This document shows, piece after piece, positions 1 through 41,514 of a DNA stretch of 64,000 bases. Every line of letters starts with the position of its first letter. Positions within the stretch are counted from its first letter, which is position 1. This DNA is from Clostridia bacterium (GTDB taxonomy: Bacteria > Bacillota > Clostridia > Oscillospirales > Acutalibacteraceae): contig JAFQKF010000047.1 in assembly GCA_017397105.1 (NCBI GenBank), forward strand, positions 1 to 64,000, read 5' to 3'. The notes under the pieces were generated by a model, which saw nothing but the letters and a program-made list of their open reading frames with translations, was not told the DNA's origin and searched no databases. Made by a program: the position numbers and the translations under genes.

Positions 1-2853
1 GTTTCTCTTGGTGGAGGAGCTTTTAAAAATTGTACATCATTAAAAGAAATATTCATTCCCAAAAGTCTTGAAAATGTAGGTGTGTTTTATTATTACACAG
101 CACACGGTCCGTTTGATGGTTGTGTAAACTTAAATGTAATTGAATTTGAAGACGATATAACTAAGATACCAGATCAATTATTTAATAGTTGTGAAGGCTT
201 ACTTTCGGTTACTATTCCTAATTCGGTTGTGGAAATAGGCGATAGCTCATTTGCTCAGTGTAATAATCTCACGTCTGTTTCAATCCCTGAAAGTGTGGTT
301 ACTATTGCAAATTATGCATTTGCAGAATGTGTTAGCCTCAGCTCAGTGTCATTGCCATCTCATTTGGAGTATTTGGGCAATGCATCATTTTTGAATTGTG
401 CTTCAATTGTAAGGATTGATATTCCTATGCCGATCGAATGTATCAGAGATGATACTTTTTCTGGTTGTTTGTTGCTTGAAAAAATAACACTAACAAACAA
501 TGTTAGAGAAATTAAAAGCTTTGCATTTAGAAATTGCCAATCTTTGGTTGAAATTGAGATTCCTAAAGATGTTACATATATAGCCAAAGAAGCTTTTTAT
601 GGTTGTTCTACATTAACTAAAATTAATATTCACGAAAACATAATTAACATTGGTGAAAGTGCATTTGAAAACTGCACATCACTTCAACAAGTTTCAATGA
701 CAAACAGTGTGACAGAAATTGGCAACACAGCGTTTAAAGGTTGCACAGCATTAACTAATATAGAACTTAGCTCTAAATTAACAACAATCAATGATAGTCT
801 TTTTGCTGATTGCTCGTCACTTGAAGAAATTGTTATTCCAAAAGGTGTAACGAAGATTAACAAAAATGCATTTTTGAATTGTGTTTCTCTTAAGAAAATA
901 ACAATTCCCGTAACGGTTACATCCATTGACAGCACTTCACTTTCGTATCCCGACAGAACAGTTATTTATGGTTGTGTAGGTTCTTATGCAGAAACATATG
1001 CAAATGAATATGGTTTTGAATTTGTTGACATTACAAAGCATATTACCGGCCTGATTCTCAAGGATAATGATGAAGAAAAGATAACAATTGACAGAGGATA
1101 TTATGTAACTCCCGAGTTTGAATATCTTCCGGCTGACACGACCGATGTCATTACTCTTACATCGAACGACACATCAATAGTAACCGTAGACGGAAGCAGG
1201 CTTTACGGTAAAAATAACGGTTCTGCAACCGTTACCGCAACCACCACAGGCGGTCTTGAATATACTTTTGATGTTTATGTTCATACCTTAAACTCTATCT
1301 CCGTTTCAAGTCAGCCAATCAAAACAAGCTATAAACACGGAGAAGAACTTGATTTAACAGGTCTCGGAATAACTGCAAGTTATGGCGACGGTACATCGAA
1401 CACGATTACGGAATATACCGTCAGCGGTTATGATCCCAATGTTTACGGTGCACAGACCGTAACCATTAGTTACAATGACAAGGAAGTAACGTTTACAGTT
1501 GAAGTAATTGATGACCGAACTAAACTTACTTCAATTGCAATAACCACACTTCCGTCTAAAGTTGCATATAACAAGGGTGAATCATTTGACCCAACAGGTA
1601 TGGTTGTTACCGGTTACTATAGCGATGGTACATCTGCTCCTGTTACAGGTTATACAGTTTCTGCCATGAACTCACTTAAAACAGGCACACAAACACTTAC
1701 TGTTACTTATGAAGAGTTTACGGCAACATTTACCGTTACCGTCGGAATGGCAACCGTAACACTTTCCTCTGTGTCCATTAAAACACTCCCGAATAAAGTC
1801 GTTTATATTGTGGGAGAAAGTTTTGATACAAGCGGACTTATTTTAGTTGCAAACTATTCTGATGGCAGCACAAAAGAAGTTTCAAGCGGATATTCCGTTG
1901 GTGGATTCAGTTCATCGTCGGTTGGAACTAAAACTATTACGGTAACTTATGAAGGAAAGTCAACAACATTCAATGTTACCGTAAAAGAAAACGAACCCGT
2001 CGTAAAGGATGTTTACACAATAACATTTAATTCAAATGGCGGTTCAGCAGTTAATCCGATTACTGCAGAAGAAGGTTCACAAATTTCTGCCCCTACCAAC
2101 CCCACAAAAACGGGATATACTTTTGCAGGATGGACAGATGTTAACGGAGAATCAGTTTCTGTTCCGTCAACCATGCCTTCATATAACACAACCCTTTATG
2201 CAAAGTGGGCTGTAAACAGTTATACAGTAACATGGATAGTTGATGATGAAACTACGGAAGAAAATTATAAATTTGGTGCAACAATAAACGAACCCGCAGA
2301 ACCTGCAAAAGAAGGATATAAATTTGTAGACTGGACTCCTGCAATACCCGACACAATGCCTGCGTATGGTTTAACTTTTACTGCAGTGTTTGATGTGCTT
2401 CCAAACGAGCCTGATTTTAATAAGGCTTGCCCCGATTGTGGAGAGAGCTTTAATAATGAGGATGAGTACAACCGTCATGTTTCAGAGCACGGCGGTGATG
2501 AAAATGAAGAAGATTTTGAGTTTGAAATCCGCACACCTTCCATAGCAACCGTCAACTATGGAGATTCGCTTATGCTGCATGCTGATGTTACGGGCACGTT
2601 GCCTGAGGATTTTTATATCGGCTGGTCAACAAATAATGAGCATTTTACTGTTGATATCTCTGGAAAGGGCTCCGTGTGCACAATTTCGCCGGCTTCAAGC
2701 GGTGAAACGGAGTTTACTGCCACTGTTTATGACAAGGACGGCAATGTTGTTTGCTCAGATACGCAGAAGGTTGCCTCCAAAGCGGGCTTCTTCCACAAAA
2801 TAATCGCTTTCTTCAAAGGCTTGTTCGGTCTTACAAAGGATTATGAGTGGTAA
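1..2853 (+). CDS. BspA-type leucine-rich-repeat surface protein, 5' end outside window
   Basis: The frame is open from base 1 and already encodes LRR repeats before the first possible start (GTG at 82), so the gene begins upstream of the window and its signal peptide is not visible. Visible domains in order: about 13 BspA/LRR_5 repeats (to about nt 1000, recurring pattern I-x-x-x-A-F-x-x-C-x-x-L); a BIG2-like Ig domain (about 1050-1290); three Big_3-like Ig modules (about 1290-1990), each with a 'G-x-D-x-T/S-G-L/M' core; two InlB B-type repeats (about 2000-2400, 'GYTFAGW', 'GYKFVDW'); a C2H2-zinc-finger-like segment (2428-2490); a final Ig-like domain; and a short amphipathic tail. LRR/Ig/InlB-repeat proteins of this kind are cell-surface or secreted adhesins; the ligand cannot be told. 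The LRR part looks more AT-rich than the Ig part, which may reflect domain shuffling. No LPXTG motif is present. Confidence 0.85.
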   Translation, partial: VSLGGGAFKNCTSLKEIFIPKSLENVGVFYYYTAHGPFDGCVNLNVIEFEDDITKIPDQLFNSCEGLLSVTIPNSVVEIGDSSFAQCNNLTSVSIPESVVTIANYAFAECVSLSSVSLPSHLEYLGNASFLNCASIVRIDIPMPIECIRDDTFSGCLLLEKITLTNNVREIKSFAFRNCQSLVEIEIPKDVTYIAKEAFYGCSTLTKINIHENIINIGESAFENCTSLQQVSMTNSVTEIGNTAFKGCTALTNIELSSKLTTINDSLFADCSSLEEIVIPKGVTKINKNAFLNCVSLKKITIPVTVTSIDSTSLSYPDRTVIYGCVGSYAETYANEYGFEFVDITKHITGLILKDNDEEKITIDRGYYVTPEFEYLPADTTDVITLTSNDTSIVTVDGSRLYGKNNGSATVTATTTGGLEYTFDVYVHTLNSISVSSQPIKTSYKHGEELDLTGLGITASYGDGTSNTITEYTVSGYDPNVYGAQTVTISYNDKEVTFTVEVIDDRTKLTSIAITTLPSKVAYNKGESFDPTGMVVTGYYSDGTSAPVTGYTVSAMNSLKTGTQTLTVTYEEFTATFTVTVGMATVTLSSVSIKTLPNKVVYIVGESFDTSGLILVANYSDGSTKEVSSGYSVGGFSSSSVGTKTITVTYEGKSTTFNVTVKENEPVVKDVYTITFNSNGGSAVNPITAEEGSQISAPTNPTKTGYTFAGWTDVNGESVSVPSTMPSYNTTLYAKWAVNSYTVTWIVDDETTEENYKFGATINEPAEPAKEGYKFVDWTPAIPDTMPAYGLTFTAVFDVLPNEPDFNKACPDCGESFNNEDEYNRHVSEHGGDENEEDFEFEIRTPSIATVNYGDSLMLHADVTGTLPEDFYIGWSTNNEHFTVDISGKGSVCTISPASSGETEFTATVYDKDGNVVCSDTQKVASKAGFFHKIIAFFKGLFGLTKDYEW

Positions 2854-2887
2854 CTGATTTGATTTTTATCGACGATACTTGTTAATA

Positions 2888-2970
2888 GCGGTGCTTATGC
2901 CTTGCGGCATTTGGGCATAAGCGCCGCGGGGGACAAAACGGCACGGCAGAACAGTTTTGTTTTGCCGTGC
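2888..2970. other. two adjacent hairpins between the LRR genes
   Basis: A 14-bp stem (2888-2901 with 2914-2927, one G:U) is followed by an 8-bp stem (2941-2948 with 2963-2970). Neither has a clean U-tract on either strand, so they are not textbook intrinsic terminators. They could still end or protect the upstream transcript. The rest of the 219-bp gap holds only the promoter of the next gene. Confidence 0.5.
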
Positions 2971-2994
2971 TGAACCTTATTTATGCTGATTTTA

Positions 2995-3023
2995 TTGAAA
3001 ATGGAAATAAAATGTAATATAAT
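2995..3023 (+). promoter_or_regulatory. sigma-A-type promoter for the FIVAR/LRR gene
   Basis: TTGAAA (2995-3000), 17-bp spacer, TATAAT (3018-3023), about 50 bp before the start codon at 3073. Confidence 0.7.
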
Positions 3024-3072
3024 ATTATTTAATAAGCTTTCGCTAATCTTTTTTAACGGATGAGGTGTAGAG

Positions 3073-6000
3073 TTGAAAAAGTTTCTTTCAATATTACTTG
3101 CGGTTTGTGTTATTGCTTTGTCGCTTGTATCCGCAACGGGTGACTTTGCTGTAAGGGCGGGCGCTGCGGATGTTGATTTTAAGTGCGGAGAAAATGTAAC
3201 CTGGTCGCTTGATACCGTGACGGGGGTTTTTACACTTTCCGGTACGGGGGCAACGTATGCGTATGCATATGAAGGTCAGCCCTGGTATTCTTACAGAGAA
3301 TCAATAAAGAAAATAGTTGTAGAAGAGGGCATAACCCAGATAAGTGCCGGAACTCTTGACTGGCTGCAGTATGCAACCGTGATTTCTTTACCGTCCACTC
3401 TGAGAAAATTTGATATAACGTACAGCAGCTTGTACAGGCTTGAAACTGTTGAAATCCCTGAGGATAACTGCTTAACGGATATTAACGAAAACGTTTATAA
3501 GGGCAGTAATCTCTATGCAAGATGGGAAAAGAATACTCCGTTTTATTTTGGAACGGTTTTTTGCTGTTGGAAGGGAACGGTGCCTGCAAATACTGCTCTG
3601 GAGATAAAGGAAGGCACAACTGCCGTGCTTGAAAAAGCATTATATAATTGCTCAGCCGTGACGGATGTAACCGTACCTGACTCGGTGGAATTCATCGGAT
3701 ATCAGGCATTTGACGGAACGGCGTGGTACAATAATTTGCCTGACGGTCCGAATTATGTAGGCAAGGTTTTGCTCACTTGCAAAAATGCGGTTTTGCCTGA
3801 CGGGATGGATTTTAAAGTAAAAGAAGGAACGGTGAGTATAGCTGATTATGCCTTTTACAAGAATAATCTGATCACCTCACTGACGATTCCCGAATCTGTT
3901 GAAATAATAGGAAATCATGCATTCCACCGTTGCGAAAGCTTGAACGAAGTTATATTCGAGGATAACAGCAGACTTGTGCAGATAGGTGATTACGGATTTG
4001 CGAGCTGCTATTCGCTGACATCGATTGAACTGCCGTCAGGTGTTGATACACTTAACTATGCAGTTTTTTCGGGAGCGGCGCTTGAAAGTTTCACAATAAC
4101 GGAAAATATCAAAGAGATTTGCAAATCTGCTTTGGGATCAACGAATCTTACGGAAATTTATATTCCTGCTCATGTCAGAGTTAATGAAAGAGCCTTTGCC
4201 TGCTGCGAACAAATGAAAAGGTTTACCGTTCATCCCGATCATCCTGAGCTGATGTCGGATGAATACGGCGCCGTTTACAGCAAGGATAAAAAAATTCTGT
4301 ATTACGTTCCGAGTAAGCTTGAGCCAAGTGTATATAAGGTTGCAGATACAACCGAGCATATTGCCTATTCTGCGTTTTCATACACGGACGTAGAGCACGT
4401 TGTTTTTAATGACACGCTGAAAACCGTAGAAAAAGGAACGTTTACCGGCGCGGGCTGCAAAAAGCTGGAGCTTGGCAGCGGCCTTGAGGTTTTGCCTGAC
4501 AATTTTATTATGAATACCTCCACGCTGGAATTCCTTGTTATACCGGAGAATGTGAAGCTCCTTGAGTATTGTGCGCTGGGGCATCAGCTTAGAGAGGTTG
4601 TTTTCCTCAGCAAGGACGTTGAGTTCGGAACCCATGCACTTGATGGATTATACGGGTATGAGCCTACCGTGTATTGCTACAAGGATTCAACGGCGCACGT
4701 CTATGCGATTGAAGAAAAATATCCTTACGTTTACATTACCGATAATAATATCGGAGATTACTCTGCAGTAACGTATGCAGTAAACAAAGCAAAATCAATA
4801 AACACAAGCAGATACACTGATTATTGGCTTATGCTTCTTGATGATGCCGTAGATACTGTTGTCTGGAATATTGATGCCTCTTGCCAGAGCGACATTGATG
4901 CATTTGCTCAGGAAATAGAATATATATTCGCAGATATGGGTGTCAAATGGTCGGATTTTTCCGCTGTTGATGCTTTGATTGAAAAAGCGAAAGCTCTTGA
5001 CCGTTCGCTCTATACAGAGGAGTCGCTGAAAAAGCTTGATGATGCAGTTTCTTCTGTTGAGCGGCACTGCGACGTTGCGGACAGCACAATAATCAATACG
5101 TACGTTTATAGAATTGAAGATGCTTTAAATAGTGTTGAGCGCAAATACGGTGATTTTTCTGCAGTAGATGAAGCAATAGAAAAAGCTGAAGGAATAAACC
5201 GCAGTCTTTATACCGAAGAATCTTTGGCTGAGCTGGATGTGGCAATAAATGCGGTGGATAAAAATGCTGTCAACAGCGAAGTTATTGCAGAGTATGCATC
5301 GGCGATTGAGAAAGCGCTTGAAAATCTTAAATACAAGCCTGCTGATTATTCATCACTTGATGAATTGACAAAGTCGGCGCAGGCGATAGACCGCAGCTTG
5401 TATACGGAAGAAAGCCTTACAGAGCTTGATAAAGCAATCAACGCTGTAAGCTATGATTTGACCGTTGACAATCAGTCACAGGTAAACGAATGGAAAGCGG
5501 CGATTGAGGAAGCGCTTGAAAATCTCAAATACAAGCCTGCCGATTATTCATCACTTGAGGAATTGACAAAGTCGGCGCAGGCGATAGACCGCAGCTTGTA
5601 TACGGAAGAAAGTCTTGCAGAGCTTGATAAAGCAATCAACGCCGTAAGCTATGATTTGACCGTTGATAATCAGTCACAGGTAAACGAATGGAAAGCGGCA
5701 ATTGAGGAAGCGCTTGAGAATCTCAAATACAAGCCTGCCGATTATTCATCACTTAAGGAATTGACAAAGTCGGCGCAGGCGATAGACCGCAGCTTGTATA
5801 CGGAAGAAAGTCTTGCAGAGCTTGATAAAGTAATCAACGCCGTAAGCTATGATTTGACAGTTGACAATCAGTCACAGGTAAACGAATGGAAAGCGGCGAT
5901 TGAGGAAGCGCTTGAGAATCTCAAATACAAGCCTGCCGATTTCTCGAAAGTAAACGAGGCGGTAAAAAATGCGCAGTCGATAGACAGACGGTATTTCTCG

Positions 6001-22814: not shown

Positions 22815-22843
22815 TTGACATACGGATTATGCAGTGCTATACT
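22815..22843 (+). promoter_or_regulatory. promoter of the aro operon
   Basis: TTGACA (22815-22820), 17-bp spacer, TATACT (22838-22843). Transcription should begin near 22850, leaving a leader of about 200 nt before aroB. Confidence 0.8.
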
Positions 22844-22886
22844 TTAATACAATAAATCAACAAATCGTTTTATGGAAGTATTTTTT

Positions 22887-22943
22887 ATGAATAACATTTT
22901 TGCAACAGCATACTTTTACTTTTACTTTTGCTCAGAAAAATAG
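22887..22943 (+). CDS. aromatic leader peptide (Tyr/Phe attenuator)
   Basis: An 18-codon ORF, MNNIFATAYFYFYFCSEK, ending in TAG, with GGAAG 8 nt before its ATG. Codons 9-14 (22911-22928) read Tyr-Phe-Tyr-Phe-Tyr-Phe; one more Phe is at codon 5. It sits between the aro promoter and a terminator hairpin, directly ahead of a chorismate/phenylalanine operon. Seven of 18 codons are aromatic. Its job would be to sense charged tRNA-Tyr and tRNA-Phe: a ribosome stalled at these codons leaves the antiterminator segment at 22950-22961 free, while one that reaches the stop codon covers it. This reading is inference from known attenuators such as the pheA leader; the ORF and its codons are seen directly. 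Confidence 0.85.
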   Translation: MNNIFATAYFYFYFCSEK

Positions 22944-22949
22944 AGTAAG

Positions 22950-23026
22950 GGTTTTTTGCTGTATGTAAAAGCATTGTTTCATCGATTTAATGCGCCGCAG
23001 TAAAAAACTGCGGCGCTTTTAATTTT
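22950..23026 (+). promoter_or_regulatory. attenuator: antiterminator segment and terminator hairpin
   Basis: Terminator: GCGCCGCAG (22992-23000), 7-nt loop, CTGCGGCGC (23008-23016), then TTTTAATTTT, a perfect 9-bp G/C stem with U-tract before aroB. Antiterminator: GGTTTTTTGCTG (22950-22961) can pair over 12 consecutive positions (two G:U) with CAGTAAAAAACT (22998-23009), which takes the top of the terminator stem and its whole loop. An earlier competitor helix pairs ACAGCA in the leader ORF (22905-22910) with TGCTGT (22957-22962). The 12-bp antiterminator segment begins 6 nt after the leader stop codon, the spacing needed for a terminating ribosome to mask it. Confidence 0.8.
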
Positions 23027-23047
23027 CAACAGGCGGGTGTGTATAAA

Positions 23048-24100
23048 ATGAAAACCGTTAACGTAAAGGCATCGAGAGAATATAACGTATGCATCGAAAG
23101 AGGAATCCTCAAAGATGCGGGTGAAATGATATCGGCAGTGCACAAGCCCTGCAAGGCAATGCTTATAAGCGATACTAATGTTGCACCGCTTTACGCGAAA
23201 ACGGTCACGGATTCCCTTTGTGCTTCGGGCTTTGAAACGGTCAGCTTCATCATTGAAGCAGGGGAGGAATCCAAAAATGCCGTAAACCTTGCTTTGATAT
23301 GGGAAGCACTTGCGGAGAATTCTCTTACAAGAAGTGATATAATAATTGCTCTCGGCGGCGGAGTTGTAGGTGACCTTTCGGGCTTTGCGGCGGCTACGTA
23401 TCTCAGAGGAATTGAGTATATCCAGATTCCCACAACTCTGCTTGCAATGGTTGATTCTTCCGTTGGCGGCAAAACAGCGGTGGATTTAAAAGCTGGCAAA
23501 AATCTTGCAGGTGCATTTTATCAGCCCTCACTTGTTATCTGCGACCCTGAAGCGTTGAAAACTCTTTCTGCACAGACTTTTTCCGACGGTATGGCGGAGG
23601 TTATAAAGTACGGCTTTATCAACCGCCCCGAATTGCTCAGCTTGCTTGAAAGTGATTTTGATATTGCGGACGTTATTGAAATATGTGTTGAAGACAAAAG
23701 GGATATAGTTTCGCTTGATGAAAAAGACCGCGGTCTGCGTCAGCTTCTCAACCTCGGTCATACGGTGGGTCACGGTATTGAGCGCTGCTCAGGCTATTCA
23801 ATAACTCACGGAAGCGCCGTGGCGGCAGGAATGGTGATTATAACCCGTGCGGCAATCAAAGCAGGGATATGCGACAACGGTGTTCTCGAAGTGCTGATAA
23901 AGCTGCTTGAAAAGTTCAGCCTGCCTACGTCGTGTGATTTCACGGCGCAGGAAATCTGCAACGCGGCATTTAATGATAAAAAGAGAAAGGGTAACAGCAT
24001 TACGCTTGTAATTCCCGAAAAGCTGGGTGAAAGCGGGCTTGTACCCTATGACGTGGATAAGCTTTTGGATTTTATTTCTGGAGCGTGGAAAAATGACTAA
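23048..24100 (+). CDS. aroB: 3-dehydroquinate synthase
   Basis: 350 aa. Second step of the shikimate pathway: DAHP to 3-dehydroquinate, NAD- and metal-dependent, cytosolic. Seen: 'EAGEESKN', the NAD-binding 'LGGGVVGDLSGFAAATYLRG', 'PTTLLAMVDSSVGGKTAVD', and the metal ligands E (in 'DGMAEVIKYG') and H ('LNLGHTVGHGIE'). ATG at 23048 is preferred over GTG 9 nt upstream because AGGCGGGTG is too close to that GTG. First structural gene of the operon, just behind the attenuator; its end overlaps aroA by 8 nt. Confidence 0.93.
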   Translation: MKTVNVKASREYNVCIERGILKDAGEMISAVHKPCKAMLISDTNVAPLYAKTVTDSLCASGFETVSFIIEAGEESKNAVNLALIWEALAENSLTRSDIIIALGGGVVGDLSGFAAATYLRGIEYIQIPTTLLAMVDSSVGGKTAVDLKAGKNLAGAFYQPSLVICDPEALKTLSAQTFSDGMAEVIKYGFINRPELLSLLESDFDIADVIEICVEDKRDIVSLDEKDRGLRQLLNLGHTVGHGIERCSGYSITHGSAVAAGMVIITRAAIKAGICDNGVLEVLIKLLEKFSLPTSCDFTAQEICNAAFNDKKRKGNSITLVIPEKLGESGLVPYDVDKLLDFISGAWKND

Positions 24101-25337
24101 AGTTCTCAACTCGCCGTCACTCGGCGGAAGAATAAGGGCCATACCGTCAAAGTCAGAGGCTCACCGTCAGCTTATATGTGCGGCGCTGAGTAAATCTCCC
24201 GTTGAGATTGTCTGCCCTCAGACGAGTATGGATATTGAAGCTACGGCAAGATGTCTTTCGGCAATGGGTGCAGAAATTGAATACATAAACGGTGTTTACA
24301 AAGTTACTCCTATTACTCAGCCTGCGGAAAAAGCCGTGCTCGACTGCGGCGAATCGGGTTCGACTCTCAGATTCCTGCTTCCGGTTGTGTGCGCATTGGG
24401 TATTGAAGCGGATTTTATCATGAGGGGCAGACTTTCCCAAAGACCCATGACTGCTCTCACAGATGAGCTTAGTGCCCATTCGGTGAAGATATGGCAGGAG
24501 GGTGAGCATCTTTATACAAAAGGAAAAGCGCAGGGAGAAAATTGGAAAATAGATGCAGGCATTTCTTCACAGTACGTAAGCGGCTTGTTATTTATGCTCA
24601 GCATAATCGGCGGCACACTTGAGCTTACGGGCAATGTGGAAAGTGCGGCCTATATTGAGATGACCGTTAAAGCTCTCAGGGATTTTTCGGCGGATATAGA
24701 GAATAACGGCAGAGTTTATACTGTTAAAAACAGTGCTCTTTGCCGTGCCGACGGCAGAATTGTAACCGGCGGCGACTGGTCAAACGCAGCGTTCTTTATT
24801 GTTGCAGGTGCAATCGGTAAAAACCCCGTAACGGTTGACGGGCTTGAGCTTTCGTCGGTTCAGGGTGACAAGGGGATTGTGAATATTCTTGAAAGCTTCG
24901 GAGCAAGAATTGAAGCTCAGGGCAGAGAGGTTACCGCTTATCCTTCGCAGCTTGTTGCCGCTGACGTTGATGCCGCTCAGGTGCCCGACCTCGTGCCGGT
25001 TGTTGCGGTTGCGGCAAGTGTCGCAAAAGGTACAACCCGTATTTACGGTGCATCCCGCCTGAGACTCAAAGAAAGTGACAGACTTGAAACTGTTTGCAAT
25101 ATGCTCACGGCTTTCGGTGCAAAGGTTGAAATAACAGAAGACGGACTTCTTATTAACGGTGTTGACCGTCTTACGGGCGGCACGGCAGATTCTGCAGGCG
25201 ATCACAGAATAGCAATGAGCGCCGCGGTTGCTTCAACAGTGTGTGAAGGCGCTGTTGAAATAACGGGAGCGCAGGCGGTAAGCAAATCCTATCCTGCATT
25301 CTGGGAGGATTTTGAAAAACTGAGTGAAGGAGCATAA
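24093..25337 (+). CDS. aroA: 3-phosphoshikimate 1-carboxyvinyltransferase (EPSP synthase)
   Basis: 414 aa. Adds enolpyruvate from PEP to shikimate 3-phosphate. Start ATG at 24093 lies inside the end of aroB (8-nt overlap, coupled translation); the product then starts MTKVLNSPSLGG. Motifs: 'PSKSEAHRQLICAALS' (shikimate-phosphate binding), 'DCGESGSTLRFLLPV' (the equivalent of the usual LGNAGT loop), and 'RLRLKESDRL'. The loop reads 'CGESGSTLR' rather than the GNAGTAMR of class I enzymes, so this is a class II-like form, a group often less sensitive to glyphosate. That sensitivity is family knowledge, not shown here. Confidence 0.93.
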   Translation: MTKVLNSPSLGGRIRAIPSKSEAHRQLICAALSKSPVEIVCPQTSMDIEATARCLSAMGAEIEYINGVYKVTPITQPAEKAVLDCGESGSTLRFLLPVVCALGIEADFIMRGRLSQRPMTALTDELSAHSVKIWQEGEHLYTKGKAQGENWKIDAGISSQYVSGLLFMLSIIGGTLELTGNVESAAYIEMTVKALRDFSADIENNGRVYTVKNSALCRADGRIVTGGDWSNAAFFIVAGAIGKNPVTVDGLELSSVQGDKGIVNILESFGARIEAQGREVTAYPSQLVAADVDAAQVPDLVPVVAVAASVAKGTTRIYGASRLRLKESDRLETVCNMLTAFGAKVEITEDGLLINGVDRLTGGTADSAGDHRIAMSAAVASTVCEGAVEITGAQAVSKSYPAFWEDFEKLSEGA

Positions 25338-25339
25338 CG

Positions 25340-26422
25340 ATGCTTTATCCTTACGGAAATAATTTAAAATTATATATAGAAGGCGGTTCTCACGATGAGA
25401 AAATCGAGATGTTTCTCGACGGATTTCCTGCCGGCTTTCAGATTGATGCCGACGAGCTTTTGAGCTTTATGCAAAGGCGTGCGCCCGGCAGGAATGAATT
25501 CTCAACCTCAAGAAAAGAGGGTGACGTGCCTGAGTTTTTAACGGGTGTTGAAAACTCGGTTACGCAGGGCGGCAGAATTCATGCTGTAATCCGCAACAGC
25601 AATCAGCATTCCTCGGATTATTCTCAGGTTAAGGATATTCCGAGACCCTCTCATGCGGATTTTGCCGCTATCAGCAAATACGGAGCGGACGTTGACCTGA
25701 GGGGCGGCGGTCATTACTCCGGCAGGCTTACTGCAATGCTCTGCGTAGCAGGCGGTCTGTGTATCCAGTATCTTAAGAAAAAAGGAATTGAAATCTGTGC
25801 TCACGTTTACAGCATAGCAGACGTTAAGGATGCTCCTTTTGATGCGGTAAATCCCGATTTTTCCGCTCTTTCAGGTAAAGAATACCCCGTTACGGATGAT
25901 GAAGCTTGCGAGCGCATGAAGGCGAAGATTGCCAAAGCTAAAAGCGAGGGCGATTCTGTAGGCGGAATTATTGAATGTGCGGTTACAGGGCTTGAAGCAG
26001 GCATGGGCGAGCATATGTTTGCAGGCGTTGAAGCACGCATTGCATCGGTGCTTTTTGCAGTGCCTGCGGTAAAGGGTGTTGAATTCGGCGCAGGCTTTGC
26101 AAGTGCAGGGCTCAGAGGGTCCGAGAATAACGACCCGTTTGTAACGGACGGTAAGAAAGTGAGAACTCTCACCAATAACTGCGGCGGAATTTTAGGCGGA
26201 ATGACCAATTCAATGCCTGTTGTTGTGCGCGCGGCATTCAAACCCACACCGTCGATAGCAAAGGAGCAGCAGAGCGTTTCGCTCTCCAAAATGGAAAACG
26301 TAACGTTCAGCATTAAGGGCAGGCATGACCCGTGTATAGTTTTCCGTGCCGTACCCGTTGTTGAAGCGGTTGTCGCTTTGGCTGTTTGTGATATTCTCTC
26401 AGACGGAGGAGATTTAAGATGA
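25340..26422 (+). CDS. aroC: chorismate synthase
   Basis: 360 aa. Converts EPSP to chorismate using reduced FMN. It starts at ATG 25340 just after the aroA stop, with GAAGGAG ahead. Family motifs: 'GSHDEKIEMFLDGFPAGFQID' near the N-terminus, 'RRAPGRNEFSTSRKEGD', 'RPSHADF' and 'DLRGGGHYSGRLTA'. The last four bases overlap the pheA start (ATGA), so translation is coupled. Confidence 0.93.
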   Translation: MLYPYGNNLKLYIEGGSHDEKIEMFLDGFPAGFQIDADELLSFMQRRAPGRNEFSTSRKEGDVPEFLTGVENSVTQGGRIHAVIRNSNQHSSDYSQVKDIPRPSHADFAAISKYGADVDLRGGGHYSGRLTAMLCVAGGLCIQYLKKKGIEICAHVYSIADVKDAPFDAVNPDFSALSGKEYPVTDDEACERMKAKIAKAKSEGDSVGGIIECAVTGLEAGMGEHMFAGVEARIASVLFAVPAVKGVEFGAGFASAGLRGSENNDPFVTDGKKVRTLTNNCGGILGGMTNSMPVVVRAAFKPTPSIAKEQQSVSLSKMENVTFSIKGRHDPCIVFRAVPVVEAVVALAVCDILSDGGDLR

Positions 26423-27579
26423 ATAATGAAAATCTTTCAATAGAAGAACTCAGAGGAAAAATAGATGCAATAGATACCGAGCTTGTAAAGCTCTTTGCAG
26501 AAAGAATGGAGGTTTCCTCAGGCGTTGCAGAGTACAAGCGTCAGAGGGGATTGCCCGTGCTTGATGCAGGCAGGGAGCGCTCGTTGCTTGCCAAGGTTTC
26601 CGAAATGGCAGGCGAGGATTTCTCAAGCTACGTAAGGGCGCTTTATTCCACCATTTTTTCCCTTTCCCGTTCGTATCAGCAAAAGCTTATCAGCGGCACA
26701 ACGGAAAGCGTTGTAAGAATTGATGAAGCAATAAAAAATACAAATCCTCTTTTCCCACCCTCGGCGGTAGTTGCCTGCCAGGGAATAGAGGGGGCATATT
26801 CTCAGATTGCGGCTCAGAAGATGTTTGAGCTTCCCGATATTCAGTATTATACAAGCTTCGGCGAGGTTTTTGATGCCATTGAATCCGGCAAGTGCCGCTA
26901 CGGAGTTCTTCCGCTTGAAAACAGCACCGCAGGCTCCGTCACAAAAATCTATGACCTTATGAATAAACACCAGTTTTACATTGTAAAATCATGGAGACTT
27001 AAGATTGACCACAACCTTCTTGCCAAGCCCGGTGTTAAGCTTGAGGAGATACGTGAGGTTTATTCGCACGAGCAGGCGATAAATCAGTGCGCCGCATTCC
27101 TGCGTGAGAATCCTCAGATAAAGGTTGTTGAGTGCGCAAACACCGCTATGGCGGCCCGTTTTGCAGCATCGAGCGACCGAAAAGACGTTGCGGCACTTTC
27201 TTCAAGAGACTGTGCGGAAACCTACGGTCTTAACAATCTTGTTCCCAACGTGCAGGATAACGCAAATAATTACACACGCTTTATCTGTATTTCAAGAGAC
27301 CTTGAGATTTACCCGGGAGCGGATAAGACTTCGATTATGACGGTTGCTCCCAATAAACCGGGTGCTCTGTATTCGCTGCTTTCACTTTTTTATGCGGAGG
27401 GTGTAAACCTCACAAAGCTGGAATCAAGGCCCATCCCTGAGCGTGATTTTGAATTTCTGTTCTATTTTGATATAGACGTTTCCGTTTATTCACCCAAGCT
27501 TGCCGCAGTTATAGGCGAGCTCGAAAAACAGAGTGACAGATTCAGATATCTCGGCAGCTACAGCGAGCGTATCGGATAG
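26419..27579 (+). CDS. pheA: bifunctional chorismate mutase / prephenate dehydratase (P-protein)
   Basis: 386 aa. Chorismate mutase AroQ-type helical domain (residues 1-90, 'LRGKIDAIDTELVKLFAERM'), prephenate dehydratase domain (about 110-290, 'GIEGAYSQIAA', 'PLENSTAGSV', 'NNYTRFICIS' with the TRF motif), and a C-terminal ACT domain (about 300-380) carrying 'GALYSLL' and 'ESRPI', the phenylalanine-binding signature. It makes phenylpyruvate from chorismate and should be feedback-inhibited by Phe. This is the one gene that commits the operon to Phe, which fits the Phe/Tyr leader peptide. Joined to aroC by ATGA overlap. Confidence 0.93.
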   Translation: MNNENLSIEELRGKIDAIDTELVKLFAERMEVSSGVAEYKRQRGLPVLDAGRERSLLAKVSEMAGEDFSSYVRALYSTIFSLSRSYQQKLISGTTESVVRIDEAIKNTNPLFPPSAVVACQGIEGAYSQIAAQKMFELPDIQYYTSFGEVFDAIESGKCRYGVLPLENSTAGSVTKIYDLMNKHQFYIVKSWRLKIDHNLLAKPGVKLEEIREVYSHEQAINQCAAFLRENPQIKVVECANTAMAARFAASSDRKDVAALSSRDCAETYGLNNLVPNVQDNANNYTRFICISRDLEIYPGADKTSIMTVAPNKPGALYSLLSLFYAEGVNLTKLESRPIPERDFEFLFYFDIDVSVYSPKLAAVIGELEKQSDRFRYLGSYSERIG

Positions 27580-27591
27580 GGAGGAATAAAC

Positions 27592-28860
27592 TTGAAGAAT
27601 CAGAAGGATCTGAAGGTTGCATTGCTTGGCAGAAAGCTTTCTCACAGCTTTTCACCGCAGATTCACGCCTTACTTGCGGATTATGAATACCGTCTTCAGG
27701 AGCTTGAGCCCGAAGTGGTCGGCGGGTTTTTGCAAAAAGGCGAATTTGATGCCCTCAACGTAACCATTCCTTATAAGAAAACAGTTATGCCGTACCTTGC
27801 CGAAATATCTGAGCAGGCAAGAAAAATCGGCTCTGTAAATACAATTACCCGTACCGAAAACGGACTTCGCGGCGACAATACCGATTATTACGGATTTTCC
27901 TTTATGCTCAGACGCTCAGGTATTGAAGTTGAGGGTAAAAAGGTGCTTGTGCTCGGCTCGGGCGGGGCGTCAGTTACGGTAAAAGCCGTGCTTGCGGATT
28001 TGAATGCAGGTCAGATTATAACTGTTTCAAGAAGCGGTGAGAATAACTATGATAATATTTCCGCTCATTACGATGCCGAGGTTATAGTCAACACAACTCC
28101 CGTAGGAATGTACCCCGAAAACGGTAAAGCGGCGGTTTGCCTTGATGATTTCAAGGCTTGTGAGGGTGTTCTGGATCTCATATATAACCCTGCAAGAACA
28201 AAGCTTCTTTGCGATGCGAAAAGGCTCGGCATAAAATATGCAAACGGTCTTTCGATGCTTGTTGCGCAGGCGAAGCTTGCGAGTGAGCTTTTTATGGGCT
28301 GCGCAATTCCCGATGAAGAAATCGACCGTGTACTTGGCATAATGGAGGCACAAAGCGAAAATATAGTTCTTGTCGGAATGCCCGGCAGCGGAAAATCCAC
28401 CGCAGGCAGAGCTCTTGCGAAAAAGCTCGGCAGAGAATTTGTTGATACCGATTCAATGGTTGAAGCTGTATCGGGTATCACGATTCCTGAGATTTTTGAA
28501 AAATACGGCGAAGATGAATTTCGGAAAAGAGAGCATTTTGCGGCGTGCGAAGCGGGCAAAAGAAGCTCACTCGTTATTGCTACGGGCGGCGGAATAATAA
28601 AGAGGGAAGAGAATTATATACCGCTCAGCCAGAATTCCAAAATCGTTTTTCTTGACAGGGATATAAATACTCTGCCCGTTGACGGCAGACCTCTTTCTCA
28701 GGCGAATCCGCTTGAAAAGCTTTATGAAGAGCGCCTTCCTCTCTATATTAAATTCAGCGATGCAAAGGCGCAGTGTGAGCCTGAGGTTGAAAAAACCGTT
28801 CAGAATATTTTGGATGCCCTTGAGGCGGAAGGGAGAAAATATGAAACTGCTTGTGATTAA
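27592..28860 (+). CDS. aroE-aroK: shikimate dehydrogenase-shikimate kinase fusion
   Basis: 422 aa, one continuous frame from TTG at 27592 (GGGAGGAATAAAC upstream). Residues about 1-250 are shikimate dehydrogenase: 'SHSFSPQIH' (shikimate binding), 'NVTIPYKK' (catalytic Lys), '[16 protein letters not shown]' (NADP loop). Residues about 257-415 are shikimate kinase: Walker A '[17 protein letters not shown]', 'DTDSMVE', 'FRKREHFA', 'IATGGGI' and 'DGRPLS'. All key residues of both halves are visible, so both steps (dehydroshikimate to shikimate to shikimate 3-phosphate) are probably done by one polypeptide. AroE and AroK are separate proteins in most bacteria. The gene overlaps aroQ by 20 nt. Confidence 0.92.
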
Positions 28861-29266
28861 CGGACCTAATCTCAATATGCTCGGCCTCAGAGAGCCTGAG
28901 CTTTACGGAAAAAACGATTATGCCGCACTGTGCGAGCTTATAAAAAAGGCGTGTGAGGGGATTGAATATGAAATTTATCAGTCCAACCACGAGGGAGATA
29001 TAGTTGATAAAATTCAGCAGTCCTACGGTAAGGTGGATGCGATAGTTATAAATCCCGCCGCTTATACTCACACCAGCGTTGCAATTCTTGATGCTCTCAA
29101 GGCGGTTTCAATCCCGACGGTTGAGGTGCATCTTACGGATATTTCACAGCGTGAGGAATTCAGAAAGCATTCTTTCGTTTCCCTTTACGCTGAAAAAACA
29201 ATAGCAGGCCACGGATTTGACGGCTACCGTGAAGCAATTGAATATTTAAAAGAAAAGTATAACTGA
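28841..29266 (+). CDS. aroQ: 3-dehydroquinate dehydratase, type II
   Basis: 141 aa from ATG 28841, inside the end of aroE-aroK; GGGAG precedes it. Type II signature: '[19 protein letters not shown]' with the catalytic Tyr, '[12 protein letters not shown]', '[13 protein letters not shown]', '[15 protein letters not shown]' and 'GHGFDGY'. Dehydrates 3-dehydroquinate to 3-dehydroshikimate; acts as a dodecamer in known members. Confidence 0.93.
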
Positions 29267-29285: not shown

Positions 29286-30323
29286 ATGATGTCAATGGAT
29301 TTCAAAAGAAAGCTTCCCATCCCTATGGAAGTAAAGGAAAAGTACCCCGTATCATTTGCGGCATCACAGAGAAAAGCTCATATAGATAAAGAAGTTCAGG
29401 ATATTTTTGAGGGAACAAGCAAAAAAATGCTCCTTGTTATAGGCCCTTGCTCTGCGGACAGAGAAGATGCGGTAATGGAATACTGCGAAAAGCTCAAAGC
29501 TGTGCAGGATAAGGTTGAGGATAAGCTTGTAATCGTGCCCAGAATTTATACAAACAAGCCCAGAACAACGGGCGACGGCTACAAGGGAATGCTTCATCAG
29601 CCCGACCCCAACGAAAAGCCCGACCCGTTCAAGGGAATTCTTGCAATCCGTCATCTTCATACCCGCGTGCTCACCGAGCTTGGTATGTCAACAGCTGACG
29701 AAATGCTTTACCCCGATAATCACAGATATCTTTCCGACCTTATGTCATACGTAGCCGTCGGTGCACGTTCAAGCGAAAATCAGGAGCACAGGCTTGTTTC
29801 AAGCGGTGTTTCCGTACCCGTAGGTATGAAGAATCCCACCGCAGGCGACCTTTCGGTTATGATGAATTCAATTACCGCCGCTCAGCACGGCCACTCCTTC
29901 ATTTACAGAGGATGGGACGTTGAAACTACAGGTAACCCTCTTGCTCATGCAATTCTCAGAGGCTACGTTGACGAAACGGGCAAGAGCCATCCCAACTATC
30001 ATTATGAGGATCTGGAGCAGCTTTGCGAAATGTACGCAAAAACAAACCTTTCAAATCCTGCCGTTATCGTAGATGCAAACCACGCGAACTCAGGCAAAAA
30101 GTATGCCGAGCAGCCCAGAATCTGCAAGGAAGTGCTTCATTCCTGCCGCCACAATAGCGATATTGCAAAAATCGTAAAGGGCTTCATGATCGAAAGCTAT
30201 CTTGTTGACGGTGCGCAGAAGCTTGGCTCTTGCGAGCCTGTTTACGGTCAGTCGATCACCGACCCCTGCCTCGGCTGGGAAAAGACTGAAAAGCTTATCC
30301 TCGATATCGCCGAGTTAATCTGA
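29286..30323 (+). CDS. aroF: 3-deoxy-7-phosphoheptulonate synthase (DAHP synthase), AroG/F type
   Basis: 345 aa, class I-alpha. Entry step of the pathway: PEP plus erythrose 4-phosphate. Motifs: 'LVIGPCSADREDA', 'PRIYTNKPRTTGDGYKGM', 'GARSSENQEHR', 'GMKNPTAGDL' and 'DANHANSGKK'. Start after AAGGAGGAAATT; two ATGs are adjacent. It is the last gene of the aro operon, so the first enzyme of the pathway is under the same attenuator as the rest. Feedback specificity (Phe or Tyr) cannot be read with confidence. Confidence 0.92.
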   Translation: MMSMDFKRKLPIPMEVKEKYPVSFAASQRKAHIDKEVQDIFEGTSKKMLLVIGPCSADREDAVMEYCEKLKAVQDKVEDKLVIVPRIYTNKPRTTGDGYKGMLHQPDPNEKPDPFKGILAIRHLHTRVLTELGMSTADEMLYPDNHRYLSDLMSYVAVGARSSENQEHRLVSSGVSVPVGMKNPTAGDLSVMMNSITAAQHGHSFIYRGWDVETTGNPLAHAILRGYVDETGKSHPNYHYEDLEQLCEMYAKTNLSNPAVIVDANHANSGKKYAEQPRICKEVLHSCRHNSDIAKIVKGFMIESYLVDGAQKLGSCEPVYGQSITDPCLGWEKTEKLILDIAELI

Positions 30324-40683: not shown

Positions 40684-41514
40684 ATGAGCTATGCCGATAA
40701 GGTTTTTATAGAGAACTGCAAGGATATTCTTCAGAACGGTTTCTGGGATACCGACTGTGCTGTAAGACCCCGTTGGGAGGACGGTACTCCCGCTCATACA
40801 GTTAAAAAATTCTGTTTGGTAAACCGTTATGATTTGCGCAAGGAGTTTCCTGCGCTCACTCTCAGAAAGACCTTTATAAAGAGCGCCGTTGACGAATTGC
40901 TGTGGATATGGCAGAAAAAGTCGAACAACGTAAACGATCTCAGGGGTGCTATCTGGGATTCCTGGGCTGATGAAAGCGGCTCAATCGGTAAGGCTTACGG
41001 CTATCAGCTTGGAGTAAAGCATCATTATAAAGAGGGCGATTTTGATCAGGTTGACCGTGTGCTTTACGATCTGAAGCATAATCCTGCAAGCCGACGAATC
41101 ATAACCAATATTTACGTTCATCAGGATTTGAATGAAATGAATCTTTATCCCTGTGCATACAGCATGACCTTCAACGTTTCGGGCAACACGCTCAACGGAA
41201 TTCTCAATCAGCGTTCTCAGGATATGCTGGCGGCAAACAGCTGGAATATCTGCCAGTATTCCGTGCTTCTTCATATGTTTGCGCAGGTAAGCGGTCTTGA
41301 GGTGGGCGAGCTTGTTCACGTTATAGCTGATGCCCATATTTATGACCGTCACGTGCCTATCATCAAGGAGCTCATAGAGCGTGAGCCTTATGATGCACCC
41401 AAGTTTGAAATGGATAAGAGCATAACCGATTTCTATTCTTTTACAAGGGACAGTTTTGCGCTTACCGATTATAAATTCCACGGATTTGATACTAAAATCC
41501 CCGTTGCAATCTGA
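40684..41514 (+). CDS. thyA: thymidylate synthase
   Basis: 276 aa from ATG at 40684; AGGATG is well spaced for it, while the upstream in-frame GTG at 40675 is too close. dUMP to dTMP with methylene-tetrahydrofolate. 'YPCAYSMTFNV' carries the catalytic Cys (the usual His after it is Ala), 'LNQRSQDM' the phosphate-binding Arg and Asp, 'NSWNICQYS' the conserved Asn, and 'DAHIYDRHV' the substrate-binding His/Tyr. It forms an operon with dihydrofolate reductase, which regenerates its cofactor. Confidence 0.93.
   Translation: MSYADKVFIENCKDILQNGFWDTDCAVRPRWEDGTPAHTVKKFCLVNRYDLRKEFPALTLRKTFIKSAVDELLWIWQKKSNNVNDLRGAIWDSWADESGSIGKAYGYQLGVKHHYKEGDFDQVDRVLYDLKHNPASRRIITNIYVHQDLNEMNLYPCAYSMTFNVSGNTLNGILNQRSQDMLAANSWNICQYSVLLHMFAQVSGLEVGELVHVIADAHIYDRHVPIIKELIEREPYDAPKFEMDKSITDFYSFTRDSFALTDYKFHGFDTKIPVAI

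Follow-up and report, generated by a model that had tools for sequence, protein, structure and literature searches.

Predicted ribosome-mediated attenuation of a shikimate-phenylalanine operon by a Tyr/Phe leader peptide, and related aromatic leaders in an order of Clostridia

The 64-kb stretch of DNA analyzed here (the window) carries on its plus strand a row of seven genes for the shikimate-to-phenylalanine pathway, preceded by a leader with a short aromatic-rich open reading frame (ORF) and an intrinsic terminator (Table 1). The original prediction had placed seven genes including DAHP synthase (DAHPS) behind this leader, and NCBIfam and Pfam profiles confirm their identities. The operon contains pheA and lacks tyrA. 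Its first gene, aroB, may start at ATG 23048 rather than at the GTG further upstream. Terminator-like sites between 23000 and 30600 number 12, versus 9.5 in shuffled sequences, and the plus strand accounts for three of them, each with just 3-4 G-C pairs. An acetyltransferase-like gene lies about 130 bases downstream of the DAHPS gene.

Table 1. Leader and operon features, in window coordinates
Feature	Position	Strand	Basis or remark
Promoter TTGACA-17 nt-TATACT, extended -10 TG	22815-22843	+	11 of 12 consensus matches
Shine-Dalgarno-like GGAAG for the leader ORF	22874-22878	+	8 nt before ATG 22887
Leader peptide ORF, MNNIFATAYFYFYFCSEK and stop, 18 codons, ATG 22887 to TAG 22941-22943	22887-22943	+	Homologous leaders in relatives
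Segment 1 (protector), leader-coding strand; pairs with 22942-22962, including segment 2, when no ribosome is present	22905-22922	+	Predicted fold
Regulatory codons TAC TTT TAC TTT TAC TTT (Tyr-Phe, three times)	22911-22928	+	Single occurrence in the window
Segment 2, antiterminator strand, GGUUUUUUGCUG / GGTTTTTTGCTG, 6 nt past the stop	22950-22961	+	Pairing, energies
Intrinsic terminator: 10-bp stem 22992-23016, then U-tract 23017-23026 (TTTTAATTTT)	22992-23026	+	Fold; covariation
Segment 3, CAGUAAAAAACU: upper terminator 5' arm, loop, first 3 nt of 3' arm	22998-23009	+	Pairing with segment 2
aroB, 3-dehydroquinate synthase	23048-24100	+	TIGR01357; predicted start, ORF readable from GTG 23039
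aroA, EPSP synthase	24093-25337	+	TIGR01356; likely ATG 24093 inside ORF 24027-25337, start inferred from translation
aroC, chorismate synthase	25340-26422	+	NF003793/TIGR00033
pheA, chorismate mutase-prephenate dehydratase with ACT domain	26419-27579	+	PF01817, PF00800, PF01842
aroE-aroK fusion, shikimate dehydrogenase and shikimate kinase	27592-28860	+	Below whole-protein cut-offs of the single-domain models
aroQ, type II 3-dehydroquinate dehydratase	28841-29266	+	TIGR01088; predicted start
DAHP synthase, type I alpha (aroFGH family)	29286-30323	+	TIGR00034

Direct inspection of the sequence located the promoter, the 18-codon ORF, its six Tyr/Phe codons and the 12-position antiterminator pairing where they had been predicted. 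The pairing of segment 2 with segment 3 consists of 10 Watson-Crick and 2 G-U pairs. For the terminator before aroB, presence and U-tract were borne out, but the stem has 10 pairs and not the 9 originally given. The leader ORF is predicted to be translatable, on account of the GGAAG that resembles a ribosome-binding site upstream of it, and a Shine-Dalgarno-like AGAGG or GGGAG is found at a comparable place in most aligned relatives. An alternative in-frame ATG (22872) would extend the ORF to 23 codons, but it overlaps the GGAAG, and as judged from the sequence the 18-codon version is the leader ORF that fits this putative site.

A run of six consecutive TAY/TTY codons was found once on the two strands of the window, versus 0.04 expected. 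The contiguous pairing of segments 2 and 3, which reaches 13 when extended by one base, was equalled in 2 of 2000 mononucleotide shuffles of the spacer, the antiterminator duplex energy in 4 of 200 dinucleotide shuffles, and the fold of the whole leader (z = -5.7) in none of 200. In the leader region, neither the promoter pattern (2 found versus 2.8 expected) nor the number of terminators (1 versus 0.8) exceeds chance when taken alone.

The predicted folds suggest a classical attenuation cycle. With both tRNAs ample, a ribosome would reach the stop codon and overlap the start of segment 2, and the terminator would end transcription. With either tRNA short, the ribosome would stall in the Tyr/Phe codons, hold segment 1 and free segment 2, which would pair with segment 3 before the 3' arm of the terminator is made, and polymerase would read on through aroB to the DAHPS gene. 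Without a ribosome, segment 1 would hold segment 2 and the terminator would form. We infer translation of the ORF, stalling, the geometry of the footprint, kinetic antitermination and the resulting read-through from this arrangement.

Folding was computed with the leading edge of the ribosome assumed to lie 13 nt past the A-site codon. Antiterminator and protector helix are mutually exclusive in the predicted folds. With the ribosome at the first Tyr, the third Tyr or the last Phe codon, segment 2 is fully free, and when the RNA extends to 23009 the antiterminator has a probability of 0.95-0.98. A ribosome at the stop codon masks only 22950-22954 (5 nt of segment 2) under the assumed footprint and leaves this probability at 0.55; without a ribosome it is 0.01. 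Once the full terminator is transcribed, equilibrium folding yields the terminator in every ribosome state, so that antitermination would have to be kinetic, governed by the order in which the helices form. Antitermination in classical attenuators depends on order of formation as well.

Similar leaders are present in other genomes of the genus. Searching 45 of them for the codon pattern, with the reversed pattern as control, gave matches in 14 and 8 genomes, respectively, so that bare codon runs are weak evidence. In 12 of the 14 forward matches, the window's included, the run is part of a leader, followed by a terminator and with an antiterminator match of 13-14 bases. The two others (L033, L044) were rejected, as their runs do not lie in a leader with terminator and antiterminator. 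Comparison with relatives had been proposed as a check on the original prediction: 11 other genus leaders with the exact pattern keep the 13-14 base antiterminator, and the more distant L045 and L046 keep the aromatic run, with contiguous antiterminators of 11 and 8 bases, respectively. Covariation of a stem had been proposed as a further check, and is found in the terminator helix: among 15 aligned leaders, 7 of 11 pairs are changed on both sides, which none of 500 shuffles reached, and slid versions of the helix covary far worse than the true register.

The peptides of the genus share the motif (V)F(T/S)AAYFYFYFIK. In 13 other genomes the leader stands before DAHPS-Ibeta-tyrA-aroB operons, which mostly continue with aroA-aroC-pheA-aroEK-aroQ. 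The run codons of the 11 other aligned leaders with a full run vary at third positions only; among variant leaders, one (G014) lacks a Tyr-Phe pair and one (G020) has a Tyr-to-Cys change. Among named relatives by DAHPS similarity, most are metagenome-assembled genomes labelled Clostridia bacterium or Oscillospiraceae bacterium, and many come from the guts of ruminants. In L045 (2686-3780; L046 is alike by BLAST), the gene after the leader encodes the ferredoxin-like regulatory domain of DAHP synthase (PF18152) fused to prephenate dehydrogenase. The fusion has no catalytic DAHPS domain, and the last gene of the L045 operon encodes a type I alpha DAHPS; judging by gene content, this could be an intermediate towards the arrangement in the window.

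A covariance model built from 15 leaders and run on the 45 genus genomes gave matches at E-values up to 0.1 in 29 genomes, many of the weak ones partial, and full-length matches below 1e-8 in 15. These matches lie in the window, at 13 further aro operons and, in G018, at a transporter gene. Twelve of the 13 had gone into building the model, and G020 was new. The model found no match in 16 of the 45 genomes. No leader was seen at DAHPS-aroB operons without pheA and tyrA in G026 and G025 (L141, L142), nor at L138 and L139. The match in G018 is a Tyr-rich leader, MLNKSFANAYYYYVYCFK (L160:1519-1575), before a sodium:solute symporter gene (1678-3159), which suggests that this symporter is a tyrosine transporter.

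RNAalifold recovered only the terminator from the 15-leader alignment, and the antiterminator was therefore tested by pairing energies with swapped and shuffled partners. Over 34 distinct leaders, native partners pair with a mean of -19.2 versus -13.7 for swapped ones (Wilcoxon p 2.3e-10, optimistic because the rows are related sequences); the native partner ranks first in 7 and among the top three in 18. The test is weak for pheA-first operons, with a native mean of -14.0 versus -11.3 for shuffled partners over 12 units, of which 4 had no more than 10 of 200 shuffles as good, and these leaders were for that reason kept out of the proof. Measured from the first base of the final aromatic codon, the start of segment 2 lies 10-32 nt downstream in 42 of the 46 leaders that are of DAHPS type, from the genus or from the window's own genome, which is roughly where a stalled ribosome would be expected to leave it free. 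The same spacing is seen in 4 of 12 pheA-first leaders.

The survey was extended to 197 genomes of the order, with the DAHPS-Ibeta protein of a genus member as query. Matches were obtained in 127 genomes, and none in the window's own genome. An aromatic-rich ORF and an intrinsic terminator lie just upstream at 28 of the best 30 loci and at 34 of a further 40 genes (L246-L285, taken down the list with skips). These first 70 genes, 62 of them with a leader, lean towards the query, and the proportion should not be read as an unbiased rate for the whole order. Later sets, whose selection partly favoured second copies, split operons and families lacking leaders, had them in 9 of 20 (L286-L304), 8 of 20 and 10 of 10 cases. 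Counting each gene once, 88 of 119 DAHPS-Ibeta genes have a leader and 31 have none, including genes of DAHPS-pheA (L292, L301) and DAHPS-tyrA (L295) type. As a control, leader and terminator were found before 3 of 62 other genes in such loci, with the ORF limit relaxed slightly, from 45 to 60 codons. The genomes of the order with a leader include G044 (L326).

An earlier set, which included loci chosen by codon pattern and used stricter thresholds, gave leaders at 31 of the 103 aro genes that had 120 nt or more of upstream sequence, versus 10 of 383 other genes (by gene, 16 of 17 for DAHPS-Ibeta, 10 of 25 for pheA and 0 of 28 for DAHPS-Ialpha). Four of the ten precede the first gene of aromatic operons that the references left unnamed (L083, L088, L103, L119). 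All leader counts quoted are those of the automated detector, which gave false hits (extra short ORFs in L045 and L082, and probably L288) and missed L246 and L063, where leaders are visible by eye, and L273, found with a longer ORF limit. At L266 it picked both a short and a longer, family-like ORF, and the longer was used.

Two more types of leader were noted. A second conserved aromatic family, resembling MNLALMNASKYFFSFSVAFYFGYAYFAMEKLLVR, stands before pheA-first aromatic operons (L076:3873-4061, L057, L082, L096, L097, and L063 by eye) and has its antiterminator strand at the end of the coding region. A third type (RFFYFxNADCLCAE and kin) lies upstream of the first gene in L083, L088, L103 and L119, which in L083 is a class I/II aminotransferase gene. 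The antiterminator test was not significant for this third type.

These data bear on the idea that the terminator does no more than close off a short transcript from upstream, or attenuates constitutively, and that the peptide is incidental in AT-rich DNA. The window's leader is indeed AT-rich, and its promoter-like and terminator-like sites are no commoner than in shuffles. However, leaders persist in loci with a GC content of about 0.62 (L206, L211, L212), they are enriched over other genes, the terminator covaries and the antiterminator is coordinated with it, which together make an incidental peptide extremely unlikely.

Control by a T-box, another known riboswitch or a protein was also considered. 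The original prediction had reported no T-box motif in the window, and the Rfam scan agrees: at gathering thresholds the 64 kb contain no match to any family, T-box (RF00230) and Phe_leader included, which refutes known RNA families at these thresholds for the window's leader. T-boxes are common in the genus (matches in 45 of 45 genomes, in 44 of them over the cut-off), but of the 10 matches in the window's genome, 4 over the cut-off, none is on the operon's contig (C31) or on that of tyrA (C18). Rfam matches were likewise absent from L138, L139, L141, L142 and 11 order loci. We regard this explanation, together with an unknown protein that binds the leader, as barely credible.

The prediction had also contrasted the leader with Gram-positive aromatic genes as usually described, under T-box or protein control. 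That contrast depends on the lineage: within this order, one family has T-boxes in front of the operon. Among 11 scanned leaderless loci, 9 have a T-box there, all DAHPS-aroB-aroC-pheA-aroA-aroEK and none with a detectable leader peptide: eight are in that family, f13, and one (in G038) in f3 (L289, L297, L298, L300, L316, L318, L320, L322, L324). The two without a T-box are lone DAHPS genes (L286, L287). Families would thus differ in which of the two RNA sensors controls this kind of operon.

Tyrosine and phenylalanine sensing appear to be partly split in the window's genome, because tyrA has a Tyr-only leader of its own outside the operon. The gene, a prephenate dehydrogenase by Pfam, lies on another contig (C18:41082-41888), and the covariance model matches directly before it (40909-41063, E-value 1.2e-4, 37 bits; unrelated matches reach 33 bits). 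The leader reads MKTFVITAEYYYGAAYYCRVCSAAL, with a run of five Tyr codons and no Phe; a terminator follows the ORF, and its loop pairs with the ORF end, an antiterminator equalled in 19 of 200 shuffles. With a model score little above unrelated matches, position and anatomy are what argue for this candidate leader. This refines the original suggestion that one leader would sense both amino acids.

Leader codon content appears to follow the product of the operon. We grouped 90 leaders (73 after collapsing like patterns) by the presence of tyrA, pheA or both in the operon and set aside one leader with neither. The truncated loci L230, L246, L288 and L295, the transporter leader L160 and leaders from two later sets (8 of 20 and 10 of 10) were left out of these statistics; L075, L137, L143 and L144 were assigned to 'both' by hand, and L272 and L274 counted as tyrA-only because the operon call broke after aroB. 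The median Tyr fraction, Y/(Y+F), is 0.83 for operons that have only tyrA of the two genes (n = 9), 0.43 for those that have both (n = 44) and 0.29 for those that have only pheA (n = 19); the group differences have p-values of 2e-4, 1e-4 and 6e-3, which are optimistic for related rows. The window's leader, at 0.43, is in the pheA-only group. In nine genomes both leaders were found, and that of the tyrA branch is Tyr-richer than that of the pheA branch in all nine (the window's own, G145, G227, G188, G195, G214, G092, G118 and G162; three families, f1, f20 and f14, with six of the nine in f14 and four of those in one genus). In G046, a Tyr-rich leader precedes DAHPS-tyrA (L247) and none was found at the other operon (L290). 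Phe-only leaders precede three DAHPS-pheA operons, all from a single genus. Exceptions are Tyr-skewed leaders on joint operons (L255, five Tyr and no Phe; L282, four and one) and Tyr-rich leaders on pheA-only operons (L083, L304, one of those in L296, L325).

Trp codons were seen beside Phe and mostly Tyr codons in five leaders (L280, L274, L269, L275, L278; for example TRFTSFGYPRFFWAWDF, FSYGWARF and SFIFWFSS), which perhaps sense all three aromatic amino acids.

Codon content also weighs on an arrest-peptide explanation, in which a nascent-peptide stalling sequence or a small effector acts instead of the charging of the cognate tRNA. Within the genus, conservation extends to parts of the peptide beyond the aromatic run (VFTAA..IK), as an arrest peptide would have it. 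Across the order, however, the peptides diverge while the aromatic content stays, and Tyr and Phe follow the product, when an arrest peptide would be expected to keep its residues and not to exchange Phe for Tyr where tyrA has split off. We consider this mode of action very unlikely.

Together, conservation in relatives, the covarying terminator, antiterminator pairing that is better than with swapped partners, codon content that tracks the product and the anatomy of the leader support the attenuator reading of the original prediction. With a probability of roughly nine in ten, we take the window's leader to be a ribosome-mediated transcription attenuator, responsive to the charging of tRNA-Tyr and tRNA-Phe, that controls the expression of the entire seven-gene operon.

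Leader-peptide attenuation is commonly presented as Proteobacterial and T-boxes as Gram-positive, with E. coli pheA and pheST (pheM) as leader-peptide attenuators (Rfam Phe_leader); the branched-chain leader of Listeria is a Gram-positive case. The E. coli pheA and pheST systems share with the window's leader a short aromatic-rich peptide, overlapping antiterminator and terminator, and the starvation logic proposed for it. In contrast to them, the window's leader has no Rfam match, its Tyr and Phe codons alternate, and its operon is the whole shikimate-phenylalanine set, in Clostridia.

The nearest published case that we found is the uORFC-13-1 motif upstream of aroF in Acholeplasma, a predicted Phe-containing upstream ORF adjoining a terminator before a DAHP synthase gene, with a U run coding for at least one Phe and 24 unique representatives in Acholeplasma and unassigned environmental sequences (PMC8632094). 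It resembles the window-type leaders in having a Phe-containing ORF and a terminator before DAHP synthase but, as described there, differs from them in having neither Tyr/Phe alternation nor a link to operon content (PMC8632094). Other Firmicutes attenuators that replace T-boxes or repressors are the His leader peptides of a few species in Bacillus, Peptostreptococcaceae and Erysipelotrichales, which differ in serving histidine genes (PMC2965389, PMC9413887). Listeria and Staphylococcus have Gram-positive leader-peptide attenuation too, but for branched-chain amino acids (PMC5864092, PMC5794164). The Leu/Phe leader of Lactococcus lactis (RF01743) is likewise a candidate leader RNA in a Firmicute but had no match in the Rfam scan of the window (PMC2864571). 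PMC1262725 cites a 2003 study of how aromatic genes are regulated in low-GC Gram-positives. Full-text searches of an open-access library turned up no description of shikimate operons in Clostridia attenuated through Tyr/Phe leaders, a result that does not by itself prove novelty. The mechanism is classical, and leader-peptide attenuation is already known in Firmicutes.

More broadly, it is probable that in much of this order the aromatic pathway is under leader-peptide attenuators whose codons have been rewritten to match operon content: Tyr and Phe for joint operons, Tyr-rich or Tyr-only where tyrA has split off, Phe-only for some DAHPS-pheA operons, and Phe, Tyr and Trp for some shikimate operons, with one family using T-boxes in that place. 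If this is true, the order would show, as a natural experiment, how regulatory specificity is rewritten as operons split, and it offers a ready set of natural codon swaps for asking what a leader senses. In many families of gut Clostridia the trunk of aromatic biosynthesis appears to be governed by ribosome sensing, including leaders for Tyr and Phe together and for Tyr alone; this amounts to a prediction of how the supply of aromatic amino acids is controlled in uncultured gut bacteria.
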